Assembly (NCBI RefSeq): GCF_030534335.1
Contig: NZ_CP130565.1
Location: forward strand, 2,625,501-2,689,500
DNA length: 64,000 nucleotides
Reading direction: 5' to 3'
Source: Marivirga harenae
Lineage (GTDB): Bacteria > Bacteroidota > Bacteroidia > Cytophagales > Cyclobacteriaceae
Part shown: in pieces, positions 3,663 through 14,817 of the stretch
How the letters are laid out: every line of letters starts with the position of its first letter
Position numbering within the stretch: the stretch's first letter is position 1
Notes under the pieces: generated by a model
What the model saw: the letters and a program-made list of their open reading frames with translations, nothing else
Database searches by the model: none
What the model was told of the DNA's origin: nothing
Translations under genes and position numbers: made by a program

Positions 3663-4658
3663 TCACTTATACCGCAAACTAATATCCGTCAACCAATTCA
3701 TGCTGCTAATAAAATGATCGTATCCTTCTTCTTTGCTAGTTTGATTGATTTGCAACAGGTGGTCGGGTTGGCATAACAGCATTAAAAGCTTATAATCTTC
3801 ATCTGATAATTTTTCATGAAATTGGTTAACCAAATTAGCAGCTTGTTTCAATAATGCTTTTTGCAATGGATTATTCGTGTAATCAGGTATTTTATGCTCC
3901 CATGAAGGAGAACTTAATGGCAAACTTACTGCATAAACAGAGTGCTCATCAGAACTGTCTAGCATGAACAACTCTTGAATTTGCTTATTATTTGACACGC
4001 CTTTGTCTATAAAATCAGAGTTGTAGGCACTTCCATAACCATTCACCAGGCTAATTTGAAAATTGTCTGGACCGTCACCATTAGAAAGTAATATATTGAA
4101 GGGCTGTGCGGTATTCGATTTATACACTTGACCAGAATGCTTCCCCGCCAAATGCCAGGGGTTTGCGGTGGCAATAATTCCTTGATAACCTAGCGCATTT
4201 ACTATTTCAGCGACTTGATCATCGTACAAGCAAGCTGTATTAATGAAAATCCCAGGCTTCTTTTCAAAATATTCATTTAATCCATCCAGATATAATTCGA
4301 CCTCTTTTTTGAATAAAAGTGGAGAACATAAGTAACTGAATGAATGATAGGCACATGAACCTACCAATTGTATTTTTCCAGTATCAACTTGTTTTTTGAT
4401 CTCCAACATCAAATTTGTGTCATGCTGTTTGAGAAATTTCAAAAATGGTAAACTGAAAAACACTAATGGCATTTTTCTTTCATCCGCCATTTTTAATACA
4501 GTTTTCAATTTTGAATGAACCAAATCAGCGAAATCATTGACAAAATCTTGCTGACTTTTAAGTTCATTTATGGCTGAATGATTTTTTCCAATATCTAAAA
4601 ATGATAATCTTTTTACCTCCAGCGGGTGATTGAAATGTATGATTTGGTAATTATCCAT
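3663..4658 (-). CDS. GH57-like protein lacking catalytic motifs (probable pseudoenzyme)
   Basis: 331 residues that line up with the catalytic barrel of Bacteroidota GH57 alpha-amylases: an opening HFNHPLEVKRLSFLDIGKNH, then GKIQLVGSCAYHSFSYL, then FINTACLYDDQVAEIVNALG. In active members the first region reads HQP, here NHP (residues 10-12), and the nucleophile Glu sits in an NTELIY-type motif, here NTACLY (140-145) with Ala142 in its place. The usual DYETFGEH-type acid/base region is not recognisable, and the protein is shorter than usual. The gene starts 3 bases after the stop of the GT4 glucan synthase-like gene, so they are surely co-expressed. I infer a binding or regulatory role on glucan; residual or different chemistry is not excluded. 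Confidence 0.7.
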   Translation of the reverse strand: MDNYQIIHFNHPLEVKRLSFLDIGKNHSAINELKSQQDFVNDFADLVHSKLKTVLKMADERKMPLVFFSLPFLKFLKQHDTNLMLEIKKQVDTGKIQLVGSCAYHSFSYLCSPLLFKKEVELYLDGLNEYFEKKPGIFINTACLYDDQVAEIVNALGYQGIIATANPWHLAGKHSGQVYKSNTAQPFNILLSNGDGPDNFQISLVNGYGSAYNSDFIDKGVSNNKQIQELFMLDSSDEHSVYAVSLPLSSPSWEHKIPDYTNNPLQKALLKQAANLVNQFHEKLSDEDYKLLMLLCQPDHLLQINQTSKEEGYDHFISSMNWLTDISLRYK

Positions 4659-4661
4659 TTT

Positions 4662-5867
4662 TTATACTTGCTTTAGTGCTGATAAAATTTCAGATGAAAC
4701 ATCTTTCCAGTTTCTTTTCTTAACAGACGCTGCGTTTTCTTTGGCGACTTTTAAAGATTGCTTTTTGTCAGCCAGTAGTGCTCGAACAGCTGTTGCATAT
4801 GCAGCTGCATCTTTTGTAGTCACTGTGTTTACATTACTTAAAACTTCAGCCACGCCACAATTTTTTGATAAAACTAGTGGCACTTCCAAACTCACAGCCT
4901 CCAAAGCAGATAGACCAAAGGGCTCTGATAATGACGGCATCACCATCGCTTGAGAAGCTTTCATGACAGCAAAAACATCCTCCTGCGGTAAAAAACCTGT
5001 GAAATGAATTTTATCCATTAGTCCTTTTTCAGTAGCAGACGAAATCATTTCTTCCATCAATTCACCTTGCCCAACGACAACAAATCGAAGTTTATTCTCC
5101 TTTTGTATTAGTGCTTCTGCAATATCTATAAAGGTCGTAGCACCCTTTTGTAAACTTAATCTTCCACAAAAAAGAACAATATCCTCTTTGAATGGGGCCT
5201 TATAAGCAGATGGTTTTAATTCATTAATTCCATGATGGATTACCTTGATCTTGGAAGCTGAAATACCGTATTCTTTTACCATTATGTTTTTATGGTACTT
5301 GCTCACGGCTATTACTAAATCAGCTTTCTGCATGCCTTCCCTTTCCAAGTCAAATAACCATGAATTGCTTTTTTTTCCACTACGATCGTAATCCAAGGCA
5401 TGAATATGCAAAACAAAAGGTTTTTTACTCAACTCTTTTAATTGCTTGGATGCAGGAATGGCGGTCCAATCATGCGCATAAATAATATCAAAATCTAGAT
5501 TCCTGCTTTTGGAAATGATTTTTTGGCTGAAATCCTCTAATGCTTCTTGTACAGAAATTTCAATATTATCATTGTATTGCTCTTCAATTTCAACACTTCC
5601 AGCGTAAAAATAGGGATTGAGTTCACTTTTAACAGACAGGTGAACTAAATCGGCATTCAATTGCTGTTGGTTAGTGAGCTTTTGTCTATTGACTGTTTCA
5701 ATTCTACTTTGCTCAGTTTCTTGCTCCGCTAATTCATCTGCACTCTCGACCGAGAATAATTTCAGATGCACCTTTTCAGCTAAATGCTGAGCAATATGAT
5801 AGCATGCGATTCCCAGTCCGCTGTTCTGTGGGCTTGGTTTTCCTGGTCCGATCATCAAAACTTCCAT
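4662..5867 (-). CDS. GT4 glycosyltransferase, glycogen/starch synthase-like
   Basis: A 401-residue GT-B protein. The N-terminus MEVLMIGPGKPSPQNSGLGI resembles the start of bacterial/archaeal glucan synthases, and DIIYAHDWTAIPA is the usual glycogen-synthase-type acceptor-domain motif. The donor domain shows CGRLSLQKGATTFIDIA and the E-x7-E motif EPFGLSALE. I chose ATG at 5867 over a TTG two codons upstream. It is the middle gene of a tight leftward operon: 21 bases after GH31 and 3 bases before the GH57-like gene. That context suggests alpha-glucan synthesis or remodelling, but the exact product is unproven. Confidence 0.8.
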   Translation of the reverse strand: MEVLMIGPGKPSPQNSGLGIACYHIAQHLAEKVHLKLFSVESADELAEQETEQSRIETVNRQKLTNQQQLNADLVHLSVKSELNPYFYAGSVEIEEQYNDNIEISVQEALEDFSQKIISKSRNLDFDIIYAHDWTAIPASKQLKELSKKPFVLHIHALDYDRSGKKSNSWLFDLEREGMQKADLVIAVSKYHKNIMVKEYGISASKIKVIHHGINELKPSAYKAPFKEDIVLFCGRLSLQKGATTFIDIAEALIQKENKLRFVVVGQGELMEEMISSATEKGLMDKIHFTGFLPQEDVFAVMKASQAMVMPSLSEPFGLSALEAVSLEVPLVLSKNCGVAEVLSNVNTVTTKDAAAYATAVRALLADKKQSLKVAKENAASVKKRNWKDVSSEILSALKQV

Positions 5868-5888
5868 GGGCAATTTTTTATAAGGTTA

Positions 5889-8309
5889 CTATTTTATGAT
5901 TTCAATTGTAGTAAATTCTTTACTAACGATAAATGTTGAATTAGCGATGGTACTAATTGTATGACCATCTACTATTACTTTTTCAATATTTTCAAATCCA
6001 TGTAGAATCACTTCAAATCCTTTATTTCCACTTTCAAATTCTTTGTCCAGATTATGATGAATGATTACACCATTATCAACGGGCTTTTGAATAAAAGTGT
6101 GCAAAGTACTGATACCCATTTCAAAATCTTTGGTCAGTCCATCATCTTCATATAATTCGCTTTCTGTTTCTTCTAAAGCTTTATAAACGTGAAGTTTGAT
6201 GTTTTCGGGAATGAATTCATCCACATACTGCATTTTATCCTGCATAGGGAGAATTGCTCCCGCTTTTACAAACATTGGAATTTGATCCAAAGGAGTTTGG
6301 ACAGTAATTTCCCTTTTTCCCGATAATATCTCATCAGTCCAGAAATTATACCATTTGCCCTCAGGCAAATACATCATTCTTTCAGTTACTTTAGGAGCGG
6401 AAACCGGGCAAATCAGTAAATACTGGCCTAACAGAAATTCTTCTTCTCTGTCCAAAGTCTCAGTATCGTTTTGATATACTAAAGATATCGACCGCAACAT
6501 AGGTTTAGCATTTTCTGCATATTGCCAATAGGTCGTATAGAGGTATGGCATGATTTCATACCTCATTTCGATAAATCTTCTTACAATGTTCAAATATTTT
6601 TCTTCAAACTGCCAAGGCTCTTTGTCGCCATGGTCTCCTGATGAATGCGTTCGGAAAAATGGATGGAAAGTAGCCATTTGAATCCAACGAGTATACAGTT
6701 CTCCATCAGGGGCTCCGATGAATCCCCCTACGTCAGAGCCAGAGAAAGAAACACCCGAAGCACTTAATCTTTGGCACTGAATATTGGCAATTTTCAAATG
6801 CTCCCATGAGGCCATATTATCTCCTGTCCAAACAGAGCTGAATCTTTGAATTCCTGCATATGCTGAGCGGGTGATGGTAAAGCTTCTGTTATTTCCTGAA
6901 AATTGCTCTAAGCCTTCGTAGGTTGCTCTGGCCATTTGCATTCCGTAAACATTATGTCCTTTTCGATGGCTACACGGATGACCGTCATAATCATGTCTTA
7001 CATCACGTGGAAATGTGCCTTCTTCAAATACTGCAGGCTCGTTCATATCATTCCAAACGCCAGCCACTCCATCTTGTACTAGTCCTCCGAATAATCCTGA
7101 CCACCATTTCCTTGCTGCAGGATTTGTGAAGTCAGGGAAATGGCAAGGACCAGGCCAAACACTGCCTTTAAATCTGGCACCATCCATTCTTTGGCAGAAA
7201 TAATTATGGTGAACACCTTGTTGAAAAACTGTATAGAGCGGATCAATTTTAATTCCGGGGTCAACAATTACGATGGTCTTAAATCCATCTTCCTTCAAAT
7301 CGGCAATCATCTGCTTTGGATTTGGGAACCTTTCATTATTCCAGGTAAAGATTCTATAGCCATCCATGTAATCAATATCTAAATGGATCACATCGCATGG
7401 AATTTTCTTGTCGCGGAAGTTATTAGCCAATTCACGAACTGTTTGCTCAGGATAATAGCTCCATTTACTCTGATGGTAACCTAATGCCCATTTTGGTGGG
7501 AGAGGGGATCTTCCTGTCAGCTCGGTGTAATCTTGCACTACATTTTCTAACTTAGGACCATAGATGAAGTAATATCGCATTTCCCCTCCTTGTGCCCAAA
7601 AACTTAAGGCCTCTTTTCTCTCATGCCCAAAATCAAAGAATGTCCGAAAAGAATTGTCTAAGAAGATACCATAGCCTTCTCCATCATTCAAACCCATAAA
7701 GAACGGAATGTTTTTATAAACAGGGTCTGTTTCATTGCCATATCCATAGCAATCGGTGCCCCATAATTCTCTACGAGTTCCATTTAAATTTAGACTGCCT
7801 GTTTTATCGCCTAAGCCGTAATATTTATTATTTTTCGAAGATTTTAAGGTAGAAATAACCACATGTCCACCAAATCTTTTTTCATCTTTCCAATGATAGC
7901 CTTTTTCATCTTCAACTAACATTTTTCCATCCTTATCAAGGATTTTGATTGTTGCATCTGATTTTTTAATGATGCACTTGAGCAAATCAGTACTGACAAT
8001 TAATGCATCTTGAGATGTCTCGAAATGATAATTCGTATTTTCAAATTCGAATTCTGGATCAATTGCGTAAGAAAAGTCATTTTCAAAATATCCATCATTG
8101 GCGTAACGGAATTTTAGGATTTTCTCACTAATAATACTGAGTTCCAAGGAAGAGTGTTGGGCATAAATTTTTATTTTGCCTTTTTTCTGTTTCCAGCTGA
8201 TGATTCCACCAGGATAAAATTCCTCTTCCTTGTGCTCTTTAAATTTTTCTATATAATTGCCTTCAAAATCCTTCGCAGACTCCTCAGCTTTATCTTTATT
8301 TTCTTCCAT
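5889..8309 (-). CDS. GH31 alpha-glucosidase
   Basis: An 806-residue family 31 glycoside hydrolase that releases glucose from alpha-glucan ends. The (beta/alpha)8 barrel carries the nucleophile motif WNDMNEP (Asp421), and the acid/base is expected at Asp497 in WTGDNMASWEHL. GSDVGGFIGAP and the FHPFFRTHS substrate-site motif are also clear. An N-terminal galactose-mutarotase-like domain and C-terminal beta domains frame the barrel. No signal peptide is present, so it probably acts in the cytoplasm on glycogen or maltodextrin. It heads the operon with the GT4 and GH57-like genes and is divergent from the glycogen synthase (226-base gap). Confidence 0.93.
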   Translation of the reverse strand: MEENKDKAEESAKDFEGNYIEKFKEHKEEEFYPGGIISWKQKKGKIKIYAQHSSLELSIISEKILKFRYANDGYFENDFSYAIDPEFEFENTNYHFETSQDALIVSTDLLKCIIKKSDATIKILDKDGKMLVEDEKGYHWKDEKRFGGHVVISTLKSSKNNKYYGLGDKTGSLNLNGTRRELWGTDCYGYGNETDPVYKNIPFFMGLNDGEGYGIFLDNSFRTFFDFGHERKEALSFWAQGGEMRYYFIYGPKLENVVQDYTELTGRSPLPPKWALGYHQSKWSYYPEQTVRELANNFRDKKIPCDVIHLDIDYMDGYRIFTWNNERFPNPKQMIADLKEDGFKTIVIVDPGIKIDPLYTVFQQGVHHNYFCQRMDGARFKGSVWPGPCHFPDFTNPAARKWWSGLFGGLVQDGVAGVWNDMNEPAVFEEGTFPRDVRHDYDGHPCSHRKGHNVYGMQMARATYEGLEQFSGNNRSFTITRSAYAGIQRFSSVWTGDNMASWEHLKIANIQCQRLSASGVSFSGSDVGGFIGAPDGELYTRWIQMATFHPFFRTHSSGDHGDKEPWQFEEKYLNIVRRFIEMRYEIMPYLYTTYWQYAENAKPMLRSISLVYQNDTETLDREEEFLLGQYLLICPVSAPKVTERMMYLPEGKWYNFWTDEILSGKREITVQTPLDQIPMFVKAGAILPMQDKMQYVDEFIPENIKLHVYKALEETESELYEDDGLTKDFEMGISTLHTFIQKPVDNGVIIHHNLDKEFESGNKGFEVILHGFENIEKVIVDGHTISTIANSTFIVSKEFTTIEIIK

Positions 8310-8535: not shown

Positions 8536-10359
8536 ATGAAGGAAACTAATTCGATTGATAATGAAGCACATATTTTAACCGAAGTGGCTTGGGAGGTCTG
8601 CAATCAAGTAGGCGGAATTTACACGGTTATACGATCCAAGGTACCTACTATGGTGAAAAACTGGGGAAAAAACTATGTTCTTCTAGGTCCTTATGCGCCC
8701 AAAGAAGCAGCCACCGATTTTGAAGAGGCACAGTTTGGTCACGATGTAATTGATGAAACTTTAAGAATATGTAGAGAGAAAGGTTTAAATATAAAGAGTG
8801 GATATTGGTTAGTATCGGGTAGACCTCAAACCTTACTGTTTGACCATAAGTCTTCCTTTCACGAATTAGGTGATATTAAATACTATTATTGGCAAAATCA
8901 TGGAATAGATTTTAAAAATCATGATCCACTGATGGATGAGGTATTGGCTTTTGGATACATGGTGCATATTTTTCTTTCTGAGTTGACTCGAGTGGCCATT
9001 GATAAAAAATTGAAGCCAATAGCCCATTTCCATGAATGGATGGCTGGTTCTGCAATTCCAAACTTGCGTAGAGATCAAGTTCCTCTGCAAACAATATTTA
9101 CAACTCATGCCACACTTTTAGGTAGATATTTGGCTATGAACGACCCCCAATTTTATGATCACCTTCCATTTATGGATTGGCATAAAGAAGCAGTTCATTT
9201 TAATGTAGAGGCAAATGTTAAATTAGAGCGAGCTTGTGTTCATGGTGCACATGTTTTTACAACCGTCAGTGAAGTGACAGGAAAAGAATGTTTTCATTTG
9301 CTGGGTAGGAGCCCAGATAAAATATTACCTAATGGCTTAAATATAGAAAGGTTCTCAGTATTACATGAAGTACAGAATTTGCATCATAAATATAAGCTTC
9401 TACTTGAGCAGTTTATTATGGGGCATTTTTTTAAAAGTTATTCATTTAACTTAAGTAAAACACTTTACTTTTTTACCTCTGGGAGATTTGAATATTCCAA
9501 TAAAGGTTACGATTTAACCCTAGAAGCATTGGCTCGCTTAAACCATAGATTGAAGGAAGCTAACTCCCCATTAACTGTGGTCATGTTTTTTATTACACGT
9601 CAACCTGTTCAGTCCATCAATCCTGATGTTTTGAATGCAAGGGCGATGTTGGATAAAATTAATACCAATTCAAATGCAATAGTAGAACAGATTAAGAATC
9701 GATTATATCGTCAGGCCGCCTCAAGTAAAGGAGATCATAAGCTCCCTAATCTAAATGATATGGTCGATGACTATTGGAAATTGCGGCACAGAAGAACCAT
9801 ACAGGCATGGAAGTCAGGTGGTTTGCCGCCCGTGGTAACGCATAATTTAGTGAACGATGATAAAGACGATATTTTAAATTTCTTGAGAACCGCCAACCTT
9901 GTCAACCACGAATCCGATAAAGTTAAAGTAGTGTATCATCCTGATTTTATATCGTCCACGAATCCGTTATTTGGAATGGAGTATGATGATTTTGTAAGGG
10001 CTTGCCATCTTGGAGTTTTTCCAAGCTATTATGAACCTTGGGGATATACGCCTTTAGAATCTTTGGCAAGAGGTGTAGCTTCAGTGACTTCAGATTTGTC
10101 AGGATTCGGAGACTACATGAAGAATGTGAGTATCGGAGATAGAAAGCATGGAATGTTCATAGTAAAAAGAGCCAATAAAAGCTTTGATGAGGCAGCTGAG
10201 GAATTGACGAATGTGATGTGGGATTTTACCCAAATCACTAGTAGAGAAAGAATTGATATGCGGAATATGTCAGAAGATTTATCAGAAGTTTTTGATTGGA
10301 AGAATTTGTATAGCGCTTATGAAAGTAGCTACAAAATGGCTTTAGAGACATATTTTTAA
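8536..10359 (+). CDS. Glycogen synthase, eukaryote-type GT3
   Basis: A 607-residue protein of the GT3 family, the glycogen synthase class of fungi and animals, rather than the bacterial GlgA (GT5) class. The N-terminal EVAWEVCNQVGGIYTVIRSK closely parallels yeast Gsy. The E-x7-E catalytic motif lies in YEPWGYTPLESLARG and is followed by SDLSGFGDYM. WKLRHRRTIQAW and VTHNL are also GT3 hallmarks. The long phosphorylated C-terminal tail of eukaryotic enzymes is absent, and the glucose-6-phosphate-sensing arginine helix is partly kept (Arg570, Arg572, Arg576). It polymerises glucose from a nucleotide sugar in the cytoplasm. DUF4301 follows 18 bases later in the same operon. Confidence 0.93.
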   Translation: MKETNSIDNEAHILTEVAWEVCNQVGGIYTVIRSKVPTMVKNWGKNYVLLGPYAPKEAATDFEEAQFGHDVIDETLRICREKGLNIKSGYWLVSGRPQTLLFDHKSSFHELGDIKYYYWQNHGIDFKNHDPLMDEVLAFGYMVHIFLSELTRVAIDKKLKPIAHFHEWMAGSAIPNLRRDQVPLQTIFTTHATLLGRYLAMNDPQFYDHLPFMDWHKEAVHFNVEANVKLERACVHGAHVFTTVSEVTGKECFHLLGRSPDKILPNGLNIERFSVLHEVQNLHHKYKLLLEQFIMGHFFKSYSFNLSKTLYFFTSGRFEYSNKGYDLTLEALARLNHRLKEANSPLTVVMFFITRQPVQSINPDVLNARAMLDKINTNSNAIVEQIKNRLYRQAASSKGDHKLPNLNDMVDDYWKLRHRRTIQAWKSGGLPPVVTHNLVNDDKDDILNFLRTANLVNHESDKVKVVYHPDFISSTNPLFGMEYDDFVRACHLGVFPSYYEPWGYTPLESLARGVASVTSDLSGFGDYMKNVSIGDRKHGMFIVKRANKSFDEAAEELTNVMWDFTQITSRERIDMRNMSEDLSEVFDWKNLYSAYESSYKMALETYF

Positions 10360-10377
10360 ACCTAACAACCTAAAATT

Positions 10378-11883
10378 ATGGATAGTAAATTACAAGAAGA
10401 TATTCAAAAAGCAGGAAAGTCAATTGATCTGGTAGAGGAACAGTTAAATAGATTTAAAAAAGGATTTCCTTACTTGCCCATTGACAGACCCGCAACTATT
10501 GGAGATGGATTGATTCAATTATCTGAAAAAAGTATAGATGAATTTATTTCCTTTTATGAGAAGCAGTCAAATGATTATAACTTGATAAAATTTGTACCTG
10601 CAAGTGGAGCTGCTAGTCGGATGTTTAAGAATTTGTATGCTTTTCTGGAGGAAGACGAATCTAAAGCAGAGCATGATCAATTTTTGAAAAAATTCTTTGA
10701 CAATATTCATAATTTCGCGTTTTCTCAAGCATTAGATAAGGAAATGCAAGAGAATGGAAGTGGGATCGATCAAGCTCTAAAGAATGGAGAGTATCATAAG
10801 ATCGTACAAACTCTGCTTTTCGAAGATGGATTAAATTACGGGAATTTGCCCAAAGGACTCTTGGAATTTCATGATTATAAATCAGGAATTAAAACACCGG
10901 TAGCCGAGCATTTTACAGAAGGTGAAAATTATGCAAGAGGGACTGAAGGAAAAGTTAGATTGCATTTTACTTGTTCACCTGAGCATCAAAAACTATTCGA
11001 AGAGCATGCGGACCATATAAGGAAGGGTTTCAGTGAATTTGATATTACCTTTTCTCAACAAAAGCCTGAAACTGATACCATTGCAGTCAACCCTGATAAT
11101 ACTCCTTTCTACAATGAAGATGGAAGTATTCTATTTCGGCCTGCTGGTCATGGCGCTTTAATTGAAAACTTGAATGATTTAGATAGCGATATAGTTTTTA
11201 TCAAAAATATCGATAATGTAGTACCTGATCATTTAAAATTGAATACTATTCACTATAAGAAAGCTTTAGCCGGATTGTTAATGAGTGTCCAAAGTAGATT
11301 GTTTGGTTATCAAAATCAATTGGAAAGAAATATCAGTGAGTTGGAATTATTAGAAATTGAGAATTTTGCCAGAAAGGATCTGTTTTTAGTATTTAAGAAC
11401 GATTATGCTCAATTAGATTTTTCAGAGAAAGTAGGTTATCTGCAGTATTTATTGCACCGACCAATAAGGGTATGTGGCATGGTGAAAAATACTGGAGAGC
11501 CAGGAGGTGGTCCTTTCTGGGTAAAAGAAGAGGATGGCTCATTAAACTTGCAAATAGCAGAAACATCCCAAATTGATCCTGATGATAAAAGGGCGCAGGA
11601 AGCATTGCAAAATTCCACTCATTTCAATCCAGTTGATTTGGTTTGTGGAATTAAGGATTTACATGGTCGAAAGTTTGATTTAATAAAATATAGAAATCCA
11701 GAAACAGGATTTATTACCGCTAAATCCAAAGATGGTAAGGAGTTAAAAGCATTGGAGCTTCCAGGCTTGTGGAATGGTGCAATGTCTGATTGGATTACGC
11801 TTTTTGTAGAAGTGCCATTATCAACCTTTAATCCTGTAAAAACAGTTAATGATTTACTAAGGGAAGAACATCAAGCAGGGTGA
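10378..11883 (+). CDS. DUF4301 family protein, predicted sugar nucleotidyltransferase
   Basis: A 501-residue DUF4301 protein. Its motif order resembles UDP-glucose and UDP-GlcNAc pyrophosphorylases: a glycine-rich-loop-like KFVPASGAASRM (71-82), then a LHFTCSPEHQ segment (195-204), ITFSQQKPETD (223-233), and finally RPAGHGALIENL (254-265) followed by FIKNIDNV (274-281). The last pair mirrors the GHG/GNG...NIDN site that holds nucleotide and metal in those enzymes. This likeness is my reading of motifs, not a search result. Being 18 bases downstream of a GT3 glycogen synthase, it could supply the sugar nucleotide. It ends at a hairpin terminator shared with the convergent flavoprotein gene. 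Confidence 0.75.
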   Translation: MDSKLQEDIQKAGKSIDLVEEQLNRFKKGFPYLPIDRPATIGDGLIQLSEKSIDEFISFYEKQSNDYNLIKFVPASGAASRMFKNLYAFLEEDESKAEHDQFLKKFFDNIHNFAFSQALDKEMQENGSGIDQALKNGEYHKIVQTLLFEDGLNYGNLPKGLLEFHDYKSGIKTPVAEHFTEGENYARGTEGKVRLHFTCSPEHQKLFEEHADHIRKGFSEFDITFSQQKPETDTIAVNPDNTPFYNEDGSILFRPAGHGALIENLNDLDSDIVFIKNIDNVVPDHLKLNTIHYKKALAGLLMSVQSRLFGYQNQLERNISELELLEIENFARKDLFLVFKNDYAQLDFSEKVGYLQYLLHRPIRVCGMVKNTGEPGGGPFWVKEEDGSLNLQIAETSQIDPDDKRAQEALQNSTHFNPVDLVCGIKDLHGRKFDLIKYRNPETGFITAKSKDGKELKALELPGLWNGAMSDWITLFVEVPLSTFNPVKTVNDLLREEHQAG

Positions 11884-11912: not shown

Positions 11913-11950
11913 AAAGCCTTTTAGTTAATTTTGAAGGGCTTTTTCATTTT
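11913..11950. terminator. Hairpin terminator between convergent genes
   Basis: AAAGCCTTT (11913-11921) can pair with AAGGGCTTT (11934-11942), with one G-U wobble, followed by a T-rich stretch TTCATTTT. It lies 30 bases after the DUF4301 stop and overlaps the 3' end of the opposite-strand flavoprotein gene, so it may stop transcription mainly on the + strand. Confidence 0.6.
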
Positions 11951-13162
11951 CTGAAATTCCCTGCGAAGCCAACCAAGCTGTAGTCCAAGCGGCTTGAAAG
12001 TTAAAACCCCCAGTGACGCCATCAATATCCAAAACTTCACCTGCAAAAAACAAGCCTGGGCAGTTTCTGCTTTCCATAGTTTGCATATTAACATCGCCTA
12101 ATTTTACTCCTCCTGCTGTTACAAACTCTTCCTTGAAAGTAGTCTTTCCTGACGCCTCGTATAAATCCGCTACTAAGTGGTTGACAAGCTTATTGAATTT
12201 TTTACCTGAAAAATTATTCCAGCGTAAGCCTTCATCAATATCACATTTAGTGAGAAGATATTCCCACAGCCTTTTTGGCAATTGATAAGGATTGCTGTTG
12301 AATAACATCTTTTTAGGATTTTCTGATTGAAATTCAATGAGTCTCATTCTAGCTTCTTCCTCATTGGAAGTCGCCAGCCAGTTAACAAGCACTGAATAGT
12401 TATAATTCTTATCATACAGAATCCTAGCTCCCCAAGCGGAAAGTTTCAGCACTGCTGGCCCACTCATGCCCCAATGAGTAATCAATAAGGGCCGTGATGA
12501 GATAGTTTTGTTCCGGCAATTTTTACTTCAACATCAGAAACTGAAACTCCTGATAAAGTCGTGATATGAGAATTTGGCAGGTTAAAAGTAAATAAAGAGG
12601 GGATAGGCTCGGAAATACTATGCCTCAAATCAGCCAACCACTGAAAGGATTCTAGTTTATTATGTCCGCCAGTAGCCACTAATACTTTATCGCACTCAAG
12701 ATTTTCAGAGCCTTTTAAAATCAGTGAAAAGCCGTTCTCCGTTTTTTCAATTGATTCTACTGATACTTTCGTTCTGATTTGTACTTTGTGTTTTCTGCAT
12801 TCATTCAAAAGGCAATCAATTATGGTTTGTGAATCATCTGTAATGGGAAACATTCTCCCATCGGCTTCCGCTTTCAGCTGAACACCTCTGTTTTCAAACC
12901 ACGCTATAGTTTCTTTAGAACCGAACTGCTCAAATGCTTTTCTAAGTTTTTTATGGCCTCTCGGATAGTGTTTGATAAGCTCTTGGGGTTCCTGACAAAC
13001 ATTTGTCACATTGCACCGCCCACCACCAGAGATTTTAACTTTGGATAGTAGCTTGCTTGATTTTTCCAATACCATCACCTTCGCATCAGGATTCTTAATT
13101 GCTATATTAATAGCTCCAAAAATGCCTGCTGCACCAGCTCCTATAATGATGAATTTAGTCAA
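11925..13162 (-). pseudogene. HI0933/BaiN-type NAD(P)/FAD flavoprotein, frameshifted
   Basis: Two abutting frames together give one normal-length (about 412 aa) HI0933-family flavoprotein. The first part (12482-13162) has the FAD-binding IIGAGAAGIFG and the family motif SGGGRCNVTN, and ends ...LSHHGPY-stop. The second part (11925-12485) resumes at LITHWGMSGPAVLKLSAWGA and ends with LFFAGEVLDIDGVTGGFN. Family members read straight through HHGPLLITHWG, so one base (most simply a T in the coding strand, near 12486-12488) is missing. The start is TTG at 13162, overlapping the pgi stop as TTGA. It may be a real null mutation or a sequencing error; no frameshift-stimulating signal is evident. Confidence 0.85.
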
Positions 13163-14817
13163 TTTTTACCCTTTCTCAACCGCTTATATTCATTAATTAA
13201 GCCATTAGTGGAAGCATCATGTCCAATAACAGGATTGTCATGCTCTAATTCAGGCAAAATTAAACCCGCCAATTGCTTTCCTAGCTCCACTCCCCATTGG
13301 TCAAAACTAAAAATATTCCAGATGATGCCTTGCACAAATATTTTATGTTCATAAAGTGCAATCAAACTACCCAAGCTTTTAGGGGTTATTTTCTTCATCA
13401 ATATGGAGTTGGTGGGATTATCACCTTTAAATATTTTAAAAGGCAATAATTTCTCGATTTCTTCTGACTGTAAGCCTTTTTGTTCTAATTCCCGTCTAGC
13501 TTCTTTTTCTGTCTTTCCATTCATTAAAGCCTCAGTTTGTGCAAAGAAATTAGCTAACAATTTCTGATGATGGTCCCCGATAGGATTATGGGAAACTGCT
13601 GGAGCAATGAAATCACATGGAATCATTTTTGTCCCTTGATGAATTAATTGGTAAAAGGCATGTTGTCCATTCGTACCTGGTTCACCCCAGACGATTGGTC
13701 CTGTTTGATAAGTTGCAGGCTTACCATTTCTATCAACTGATTTCCCATTGCTTTCCATATTCCCTTGCTGAAAGTATGCAGCAAATCGGTGCAAATATTG
13801 GTCATAGGGTAAAATAGCTTCCGTTTCGGCTTTGTAAAAATTATTGTACCATATGCCAATCAAAGCTAAGACTACAGGCGCATTATCAGATAATGGAGCT
13901 TCCTTGAAATGAACATCCATTTCATGTGCTCCTTTTAATAGCGCTTCAAAATTTTCATACCCTATGTTTAAGGCAATCGATAATCCGATTGCAGACCAAA
14001 GCGAATATCTACCACCAACCCAATCCCAAAATTCGAACATATTGGCTGGGTCTATCCCAAAATTTTCAACGCCTGCTTTATTAGTACTTAGCGCTACGAA
14101 ATGTTTTTTGATTGTATCTTCACTGCCTCCATTCTCCAAAAACCATCTTCTAGCTGTATGGGCATTGGTCATGGTTTCTTGGGTAGTAAATGTTTTGGAG
14201 GCTATTAAAAACAATGTTGTTTCAGGATCAATTTTTTGCAAAACTTCTGCTATATGAGTAGCATCAACATTGGATACAAAATGACTCTCGATTCCTTTTA
14301 CTTTATAAGGTTTTAAAGCCTCGGTAACCATAACAGGCCCTAAGTCAGAGCCGCCAATTCCGATATTGACAATATGCTTAATCTCTTTGCCAGAATAGCC
14401 TTTCCATCCTCCTGAATGCACCTTTTGGCTGAAGGTCTCCATTTGCTTTCTCACCTTTTTCACTAAAGGCATTACATCCTGGCCTGATTCCATAACAGGA
14501 TTGTTGGAAAAATCTCTCAAGGCAGTATGCAGTACCGCACGATCTTCCGTTTGGTTGATTTTATTACCCGTAAACATAGATTCAATGGCTTCAGGAATTT
14601 CCATCTCCACTGCTAACTCCAATAATAAACTGAGCGTTTTTTCTGTGATTTTATTTTTAGAGAAATCTATAAAAAGGGATTCAGTATTGAGGGTGAATTT
14701 TTCGAATCTCCCTTTATCGTCTTCAAATAGTTTTTTGAGATGGATACCTTTGGTGTTTTGATAATGCTCCTCCAGCTTTTTCCAACTTTTGGTCTCGATC
14801 GGTGAAATATATGCCAT
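13159..14817 (-). CDS. pgi: Glucose-6-phosphate isomerase
   Basis: A 552-residue class I phosphoglucose isomerase of the long bacterial/eukaryotic type, interconverting glucose-6-phosphate and fructose-6-phosphate. [35 protein letters not shown] and the C-terminal [20 protein letters not shown] are diagnostic, as are [18 protein letters not shown] and [10 protein letters not shown]. The stop overlaps the TTG start of the frameshifted flavoprotein, indicating an operon of two. Its closeness to the glycogen genes fits glucose-phosphate metabolism, although pgi is a housekeeping gene anyway. The 207-base region upstream (14818-15024) is divergent to the exonuclease gene; I see no strong consensus promoter in it. 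Confidence 0.97.

Follow-up and report, generated by a model that had tools for sequence, protein, structure and literature searches.

DUF4301, a protein family predicted to fold like the UDP-glucose-making enzyme of animals and plants, may make UDP-glucose in many Bacteroidota

Background

The proteins most similar to the DUF4301 family are UDP-sugar pyrophosphorylases. Eukaryotic UDP-glucose pyrophosphorylases (UGP; PDB 3r3i, 2icy and 5weg) are its best Foldseek matches and share with it GHG, N-x-D-N, Q-x2-E-x2-Q and VP-x3-F-x-PVK-x3-DLL, arranged in matching order. They differ from DUF4301 in sequence (13-16% identity among the Foldseek matches listed), DUF4301 falls below the PF01704 cut-off, and it has an altered glycine-rich loop, some 70 helical residues between this loop and a P-K pair, and a helical block after NIDN. 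The UAP/AGX enzymes (3oc9, 6g9v and 1jv1) also match in fold, with a TMq up to 0.51, but share only 10-13% identity with DUF4301 among the Foldseek matches listed. Bacterial GalU (TIGR01099) catalyzes the reaction that is proposed here for DUF4301, yet belongs to a separate family. A plant-like, non-GalU UDP-glucose pyrophosphorylase of the UGP3 type is reported in Chlamydiae (PMC7935935); it resembles DUF4301 in the proposed reaction and in being a eukaryote-like enzyme of bacteria without GalU. According to the literature, all Bacteroidetes lack GlgC (review, PMC10395257), B. fragilis stores glycogen, and UDP-glucose pyrophosphorylase activity is reported in Prevotella bryantii (cited in a review, PMC4432691).

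This work concerns a DUF4301 gene of Marivirga harenae, located in a stretch of 64,000 nucleotides (contig NZ_CP130565.1, positions 2,625,501 to 2,689,500) that is referred to as the window. Because its predicted fold resembles that of the animal and plant enzyme, DUF4301 may be the UDP-glucose maker of many Bacteroidota.

Methods

Gene context was read in the window and in 40 of the 43 DUF4301 genomes of a phylum sample (G142 and G222 were omitted). A second context set was obtained by keeping 80 of 586 confirmed stretches. A DUF4301 ORF was called in 118 of these 121 loci, and none in L118, L136 and L139. Fused or extended DUF4301 proteins were trimmed to their last 515 residues before alignment and tree construction; the deep nodes of the tree were weakly supported and left uninterpreted. 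For profile-profile comparison with hhalign, DUF4301 was compared with UGPs only, namely two plant UGPs. Of the NTP_transferase matches in B. fragilis, four of nine were scanned.

Results

The DUF4301 gene (10378..11883, forward strand) encodes a protein of 501 aa, the proposed NDP-sugar (UDP-glucose) pyrophosphorylase, which scores 735 bits against PF14134 over residues 6-499 (curated cut-off 27 bits). ORF coordinates and Pfam agree with the earlier note in placing it 18 bases downstream of a eukaryote-type GT3 glycogen synthase gene (8536..10359, forward strand; 607 aa; PF05693, 655 bits, over the cut-off, residues 16-606). On the reverse strand, the alpha-glucan neighbourhood includes genes for a GH57-family protein (3663..4658; PF03065, E 2.3e-15) and a GT4 glycosyltransferase (4662..5873; PF00534, E 8.7e-33). 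A GH31 alpha-glucosidase-like protein (5889..8309; PF01055, E 2e-125) and glucose-6-phosphate isomerase (13159..14817; PF00342, E 1.8e-239) are encoded on the same strand.

The motif order claimed for the window protein, namely KFVPASGAASRM, TCSPEHQ, FSQQKP, RPAGHGALIENL and FIKNIDNV, was verified. Across 41 aligned DUF4301 proteins, the most distant of which shares 31% identity with the window protein, residues P74, A75, S76, G77, R81, M82, P158, K159, T198, S226, Q228, R254, P255, G257, H258, G259, K276, N277, D279 and N280 are invariant. The GHG and KN-DN sites, which the earlier note had singled out as decisive, are therefore conserved in the whole alignment (41/41), and each member has G(H/N)G followed by N-x-D-N.

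All motifs lie on the forward strand. FVPASGAASRM (residues 72-82; 10591..10623), in which F72 is likewise invariant in 41/41, is proposed to correspond to the nucleotide-binding glycine-rich loop (LNGGLGTTM in UGP); position and form suggest this equivalence, and hhalign placed the stretch elsewhere. A canonical glycine-rich loop with P-K close behind is absent in DUF4301, which has PASGAASRM and, some 75 residues on, P158-K159 (10849..10854). This PK is a candidate counterpart of the G-P-K lysine of UGP, a pairing seen only in a low-confidence hhalign alignment. FSQQKP (residues 225-230; 11050..11067) may correspond to FNQSKYP of UGP, with an uncertain register from a low-confidence alignment. 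The GHG motif RPAGHGALIENL (residues 254-265; 11137..11172) aligns with the GHG of Entamoeba UAP (profile) and of plant UGP (hhalign), and the N-x-D-N motif FIKNIDNV (residues 274-281; 11197..11220) with HNVDN of 3oc9 (profile) and NSDN of plant UGP (hhalign). Two further counterparts come from hhalign: QIAETSQID (residues 392-400; 11551..11577; Q392, E395 and Q398 invariant) for QLLEIAQV of UGP, situated within a sub-threshold Pfam UDPGP match (residues 390-497), and EVPLSTFNPVKTVNDLL (residues 478-494; 11809..11859; F484, P486, V487, K488, D492 and L493 invariant) for NVPRSRFLPVKASSDLL of UGP.

The loop thus departs from the UGP form LNGGLGTTM, and no counterpart was assigned to two helical segments (approximately residues 84-155 and 284-359), as might be the case if DUF4301 kept the fold and served as a non-catalytic regulator or sensor. 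We regard such a role as extremely improbable, since none of the candidate active-site residues varies among the 41 proteins, down to 31% identity. DUF4301 is very probably an active nucleotidyltransferase of the NDP-sugar type.

The AlphaFold2 model of the window protein is confident (pLDDT 93, pTM 0.92). Foldseek returned 54 PDB matches at E ≤ 0.001, the best being human UGP 3r3i (E 5.4e-12), and every one of the best 50 is a UDP-glucose, UDP-N-acetylhexosamine or UDP-sugar pyrophosphorylase (UGP, UAP or USP); for these 50, TM-scores are modest (TMq 0.37-0.51) and rmsd is high. The prediction accordingly contains the GT-A-like core on which the idea of the earlier note hinged, and by fold DUF4301 is a member of the UGP/UAP superfamily. 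When the DUF4301 profile was searched against all PDB sequences, the single match at E ≤ 10 was the UDP-GlcNAc pyrophosphorylase 3oc9 (E 0.0075), in an alignment that covers the GHG and N-DN sites. Pfam UDPGP was matched at E ≤ 1 by 16/41 DUF4301 members (best E 9.1e-5), and each other non-self family by at most 2/41 (25 of the 28 families listed, ordered by members). The window protein (15 bits) missed the curated PF01704 cut-off of 22 bits, as did two other DUF4301 genes (18.5 and 21.7 bits). As all the bit scores seen are under this cut-off, DUF4301 is placed as a sister family of PF01704.

In the profile-profile check against the two plant UGPs, the hhalign probability was 3.6%, PASGAASRM appeared in the third match against an out-of-order part of UGP, and global mode failed. 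The top stretch was the UGP segment ending VP..F.PVK...DLL, in which DUF4301 residues 478-494 pair with NVPRSRFLPVKASSDLL. Because of the low probability and the out-of-order loop match, column-shuffled controls were run. The best score was equalled by 1/200 controls, and the sum of a collinear match pair (50.8) was reached by 0/200, with the highest control close at 49.9. At the level of sequence comparison, the 16/41 UDPGP matches and the shuffle controls indicate that the DUF4301-UDPGP resemblance is beyond chance. The kinship with UDP-sugar pyrophosphorylases that had been read from the motifs is supported by the whole-chain model, the best PDB matches and the invariant GHG and N-DN.

This kinship would also fit a nucleotidyltransferase that has the UGP fold but works on a different sugar phosphate or nucleotide (e.g. 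another UDP-sugar, or ADP- or GDP-glucose), with RmlA or another NTP_transferase making UDP-glucose. UGP, UAP and USP enzymes are mixed in the Foldseek list and the sole PDB profile match is a UAP, whereas the top hhalign stretch is a UGP segment (UGPs alone having been compared). Four PF00483 proteins are encoded in the genome of the window; one alone is over an NCBIfam cut-off, that of RmlA, and an rmlA_long-like enzyme of 336 aa is also encoded in this genome. RmlA-type enzymes can accept UTP. Furthermore, GT3 is missing from 39/43 DUF4301 genomes of the phylum sample, and neither DUF4301 nor over-cut-off GalU was found in 6/10 GT3 genomes of that sample or in the GT3 genomes G301, G334, G338 and G345 of the putative Bacteroidales; these genomes must therefore obtain the donor in some other way. 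Against this, nearly all genomes of that order have DUF4301 and nearly all have GT3, and we consider a different substrate unlikely.

In the order taken to be Bacteroidales, DUF4301 was found in 142/149 genomes (141 over the cut-off) and GT3 in 139/149. GalU (TIGR01099, E ≤ 1e-40) was present in 5/99 genomes tested and over-cut-off UDPGP (PF01704) in 0/99, the lone sub-threshold UDPGP match in these 99 being a DUF4301 gene. All five GalU genomes carry DUF4301 as well, so the two are not mutually exclusive. In the genome of the window, GalU was not found at E ≤ 1e-40 nor UDPGP at E ≤ 0.001, and TIGR01099 was not among the NCBIfam matches of the window DUF4301 protein at E ≤ 1. The near-universality of DUF4301 and GT3 in this order, together with the rarity or absence of GalU and UDPGP in the 99 genomes, makes a UDP-glucose function plausible; this distribution is a better argument for such a role than GT3 adjacency. 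Within the two samples, DUF4301-GT3 co-occurrence did not reach significance (Fisher p 0.076 and 0.071).

GT3 adjoins DUF4301 in only 3/118 loci from two lineages, namely two Marivirga and a MAG of the Ichthyobacteriaceae. In the tree, the DUF4301 of this MAG does not group as sister to the Marivirga proteins. Adjacency as a family-wide trait is therefore rejected, and the synthesise-and-use pair suggested by the earlier note has indirect support, in which the near-universality of both genes in the putative Bacteroidales weighs more than their rare adjacency. Five genomes with GT3 and DUF4301 less than 20 kb apart (G265, G388, G311, G307 and G363) were chosen by eye and judged weak; four loci (L181-L184) were inspected, G311 not being among them. 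A glycogen cluster was seen in L181 (G363) alone, a third lineage, where GDE-GT4-GH57-GT3/phosphorylase is followed downstream, on its own strand and after two intervening genes, by DUF4301. In L182 and L184, GT3 and DUF4301 are separated by genes that were read as unrelated, and GT3 lay outside the retrieved stretch in L183.

Other neighbours were named by reading of the sequence. A RelA/SpoT-like gene is beside or near DUF4301 in 31 loci, and oxoprolinase/carboxylase-type genes are near it in Cyclobacteriaceae-type loci. Both look like plain synteny and were rejected as functional clues.

In 22/118 loci, DUF4301 is located behind PnuC and/or nicotinamide-riboside kinase, and in 11 it is fused to the kinase. 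This context is a link to NAD salvage that a UDP-glucose role does not account for. The kinase domain fused ahead of DUF4301 in this subset is of the NadR type: the fusion protein matches positions 164-322 of 325 of the TIGR01526 profile, within the kinase part only, and neither the fusion protein nor DUF4301 itself matches the N-terminal NMN adenylyltransferase half. NadR is thus represented by its kinase half alone, and its adenylyltransferase half is missing. DUF4301 might then be an NMN adenylyltransferase with a GT-A-like fold, which would convert NMN and ATP to NAD after PnuC import and the kinase step. However, three genomes of one family (G029, G088 and G107) keep PnuC, the kinase and the next gene and lack DUF4301, and the DUF4301 genomes include 11/43 without a PnuC match and 13/43 without a kinase match (E ≤ 1e-15; at most 14 candidates per genome scored in one search). 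In addition, L057 and L059 have DUF4301 after PnuC without an intervening kinase gene, and the predicted fold of DUF4301 is that of sugar-1-phosphate uridylyltransferases. PnuC co-presence was dropped as evidence, as genomes of the same class have PnuC with and without DUF4301. We judge the NMN adenylyltransferase reading to be very unlikely. Its specific form, in which DUF4301 of Flavobacteriaceae-like bacteria is the NMN adenylyltransferase of the PnuC-kinase route, stands in for the NadR adenylyltransferase domain without being homologous to it and performs NAD synthesis on a UDP-glucose pyrophosphorylase fold, is more doubtful still.

Discussion

Our best reading, towards which we lean slightly, assigns DUF4301 to the eukaryotic UGP/UAP superfamily, as a sugar-1-phosphate nucleotidyltransferase of Bacteroidota type that acts as UTP:glucose-1-phosphate uridylyltransferase (EC 2.7.7.9). 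For the predicted specificity taken by itself, we put UDP-glucose at about an even chance. In the proposed mechanism, the nucleotide triphosphate, presumably UTP, would be bound by PASGAASRM, the modified glycine-rich loop, together with the P-K pair further along the chain. GHG, N-x-D-N and F-x-PVK-x3-DLL would form the side of the site that faces sugar, metal and phosphate, with glucose-1-phosphate as the proposed substrate. The GT3 glycogen synthase of Marivirga, whose gene lies 18 bases before DUF4301, would receive the product, and in the genome of the window this synthase probably uses UDP-glucose. In Bacteroidales, DUF4301 would fill the UDP-glucose step, most sampled genomes having no recognisable GalU or UGP.

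The activity reported for P. bryantii, as cited in the review, contrasts with the counts for GalU (5/99) and over-cut-off UDPGP (0/99) in the sampled order. The kinase-DUF4301 fusion is a second puzzle. If DUF4301 is the enzyme behind the P. bryantii activity, a role would be gained for an uncharacterised family that occurs in 142/149 genomes of this order. A gap in the glycogen and UDP-sugar metabolism of Bacteroidota would then be filled, and the DUF4301-GT3 pair would constitute a eukaryote-like glycogen module in bacteria.

Kinship of DUF4301 with UDP-sugar pyrophosphorylases

An AlphaFold2 model of the 501-aa DUF4301 protein (10378-11883), built on 41 aligned homologues, had a pLDDT of 93 and a pTM of 0.92. 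Foldseek returned 54 PDB matches at E ≤ 0.001, and a pyrophosphorylase-type core was found: the best 50 of the 54 were all UDP-glucose (UGP), UDP-N-acetylhexosamine (UAP) or UDP-sugar pyrophosphorylases, with human UGP on top (E 5.4e-12). The majority of these 50 alignments cover most of the chain; their TM-scores by query length are only 0.37-0.51, with high rmsd, as expected of a distant relative, perhaps one whose domains are placed differently.

At the sequence level, the DUF4301 profile matched a single UDP-GlcNAc pyrophosphorylase and nothing else among PDB sequences at E ≤ 10; this match, with E 0.0075, aligns the GHG and N-DN sites. Pfam UDPGP was matched at E ≤ 1 by 16 of the 41 homologues (best 9.1e-5), the next non-self families by 2. 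As the bit scores seen for DUF4301 genes all stay below the UDPGP cut-off, DUF4301 is considered a sister family rather than a member. Profile-profile comparison with two plant UGPs, a check proposed in the earlier note, paired residues 390-496 and 244-308 collinearly with UGP 265-367 and 177-266, but at a probability of at most 3.6%; a third match placed the PASGAASRM stretch on an out-of-order part of UGP (322-346); global-mode alignment with the two UGPs failed. The clearest stretch was EVPLSTFNPVKTVNDLL versus NVPRSRFLPVKASSDLL. In 200 column shuffles, with insert columns taken out, the best score was equalled once and the collinear pair never (top shuffle 49.9, observed 50.8).

The GHG and NIDN sites named in the earlier note are conserved: none of the 41 homologues varies at the GHG, KN-DN, PVK or P-K residues. 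Its glycine-rich-loop-like segment is present as PASGAASRM, but differs from the canonical loop of UGP, to which we infer that it corresponds. Unlike in UGP, about 75 residues, spanning helices, separate this loop from the P-K pair after it, and NIDN is succeeded by a helical block (about 284-359); a low-confidence alignment suggests that this pair may be equivalent to P-K of UGP. Together, the Foldseek, UDP-GlcNAc pyrophosphorylase and UDPGP matches and the invariant residues provide good support for DUF4301 as a relative of UGP/UAP-type nucleotidyltransferases. In automated databases, DUF4301 may already sit in the nucleotide-diphospho-sugar transferase superfamily.

Gene context

The DUF4301 gene starts 18 bases downstream of the GT3 glycogen synthase gene (8536-10359) on the same strand, as confirmed by ORFs and Pfam. 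GT4, GH57, GH31 and glucose-6-phosphate isomerase genes surround the pair, and this alpha-glucan neighbourhood is kept in Marivirga sericea, the nearest named locus (88% identity). An adjacent oxidoreductase-like gene (11925-13162, minus strand) consists of two ORFs (226 and 186 aa, 4-base overlap), its M. sericea counterpart being a single 412-aa ORF (L079:10548-11786); the split may be a frameshift or a sequencing error.

The adjacency is not typical of DUF4301, with GT3 adjoining DUF4301 in only 3 of 118 loci: two of Marivirga and one of an Ichthyobacteriaceae MAG (L158). In the DUF4301 tree, Marivirga clusters with 14 others, mostly Cyclobacteriaceae-type (support 0.987), inside a 103-member clade (support 0.931); L158 falls outside that clade, so the pairings look separate. 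In locus L181, picked for GT3-DUF4301 proximity, DUF4301 lies downstream of a debranching enzyme, GT4, GH57 and a GT3-phosphorylase fusion encoded on its own strand, separated from them by two genes. This fusion (L181:4151-8383) combines GT3 with a carbohydrate phosphorylase domain and DUF3417.

DUF4301 lies behind PnuC and/or a NadR-type kinase in 22 of the 118 loci, 11 of which are fusions behind a NadR-type nicotinamide-riboside kinase (AAA_28; L053:8053-10164, which adjoins PnuC, and ten other loci). L158 combines both contexts as PnuC-kinase-GT3-DUF4301. The linked kinase matches the kinase half of NadR only, a pattern that might suggest an NMN adenylyltransferase role for DUF4301; however, three related genomes retain PnuC, the kinase and the next gene without DUF4301, two loci retain PnuC and DUF4301 with no intervening kinase, and a kinase match at E ≤ 1e-15 is missing from 13 of the 43 genomes with DUF4301.

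Distribution and the missing UDP-glucose step

Of the 247 Bacteroidota genomes sampled, 43 carried DUF4301; in the order to which genome G238 belongs, 142 of 149 did (141 over cut-off; those of G270 and G378 are short fragments). We take this order to be Bacteroidales, since the named DUF4301 loci are largely from Bacteroides, Prevotella and kin, and the control genome having DUF4301 is Bacteroides ihuae. GT3 was found over cut-off in 10 of the 247 (12 at E ≤ 0.001), and it was present in 139 of the 149, where ORFs of ~1,400 aa with GT3 matches are common. Co-occurrence gave Fisher p values of 0.076 (phylum sample) and 0.071 (order); both genes being near-universal in the order, association within that sample cannot be strong. 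The case for function is the missing UDP-glucose step, not this correlation.

GalU was detected in 9/247 genomes at E ≤ 1e-40 (3 over cut-off) and in 5/99 of the order, all five also carrying DUF4301. UDPGP exceeded its cut-off in none of these 99, the sole sub-threshold match lying inside a DUF4301 gene, and in 5/247, as pieces of 1,113-1,144-aa ORFs (L031:10-2175, L032-L035, L038) that possibly represent another uncharacterised or UGP3-like pyrophosphorylase family.

With the search limited to NTP_transferase (PF00483), Bacteroides fragilis (genome of L147) has nine matches; of four scanned, two scored over the cut-off of RmlA and two over that of glucose-1-phosphate cytidylyltransferase, while those of GalU and GlgC were reached by none. 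The window's genome has four such proteins, just one over any cut-off (RmlA). A 336-aa rmlA_long-like nucleotidyltransferase of this genome (L173:1489-2496; a similar protein occurs in L172), below every NCBIfam cut-off shown, is a candidate for another UDP-glucose source.

Published reviews describe GlgC as absent from all Bacteroidetes and suggest an enzyme closer to human ones instead (PMC10395257), report UDP-glucose pyrophosphorylase activity in Prevotella bryantii, citing Lou et al. (PMC4432691), and place Bacteroidetes GT3 inside DPANN archaea, with UDP-glucose as the donor of eukaryotic GT3 (PMC11046441). In a literature search mostly short of full texts, no named UDP-glucose pyrophosphorylase gene of Bacteroides, Bacteroidetes or Prevotella and no mention of PF14134 were found; DUF4301 turned up in one paper, in a table row of a rumen metaproteome study.

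Real counter-evidence to UDP-glucose as the product comes from genomes that have GT3 but neither DUF4301 nor GalU, from those carrying GalU and DUF4301 together, and from the kinase-DUF4301 fusion. UDP-glucose is the most likely, but unproven, product of DUF4301.
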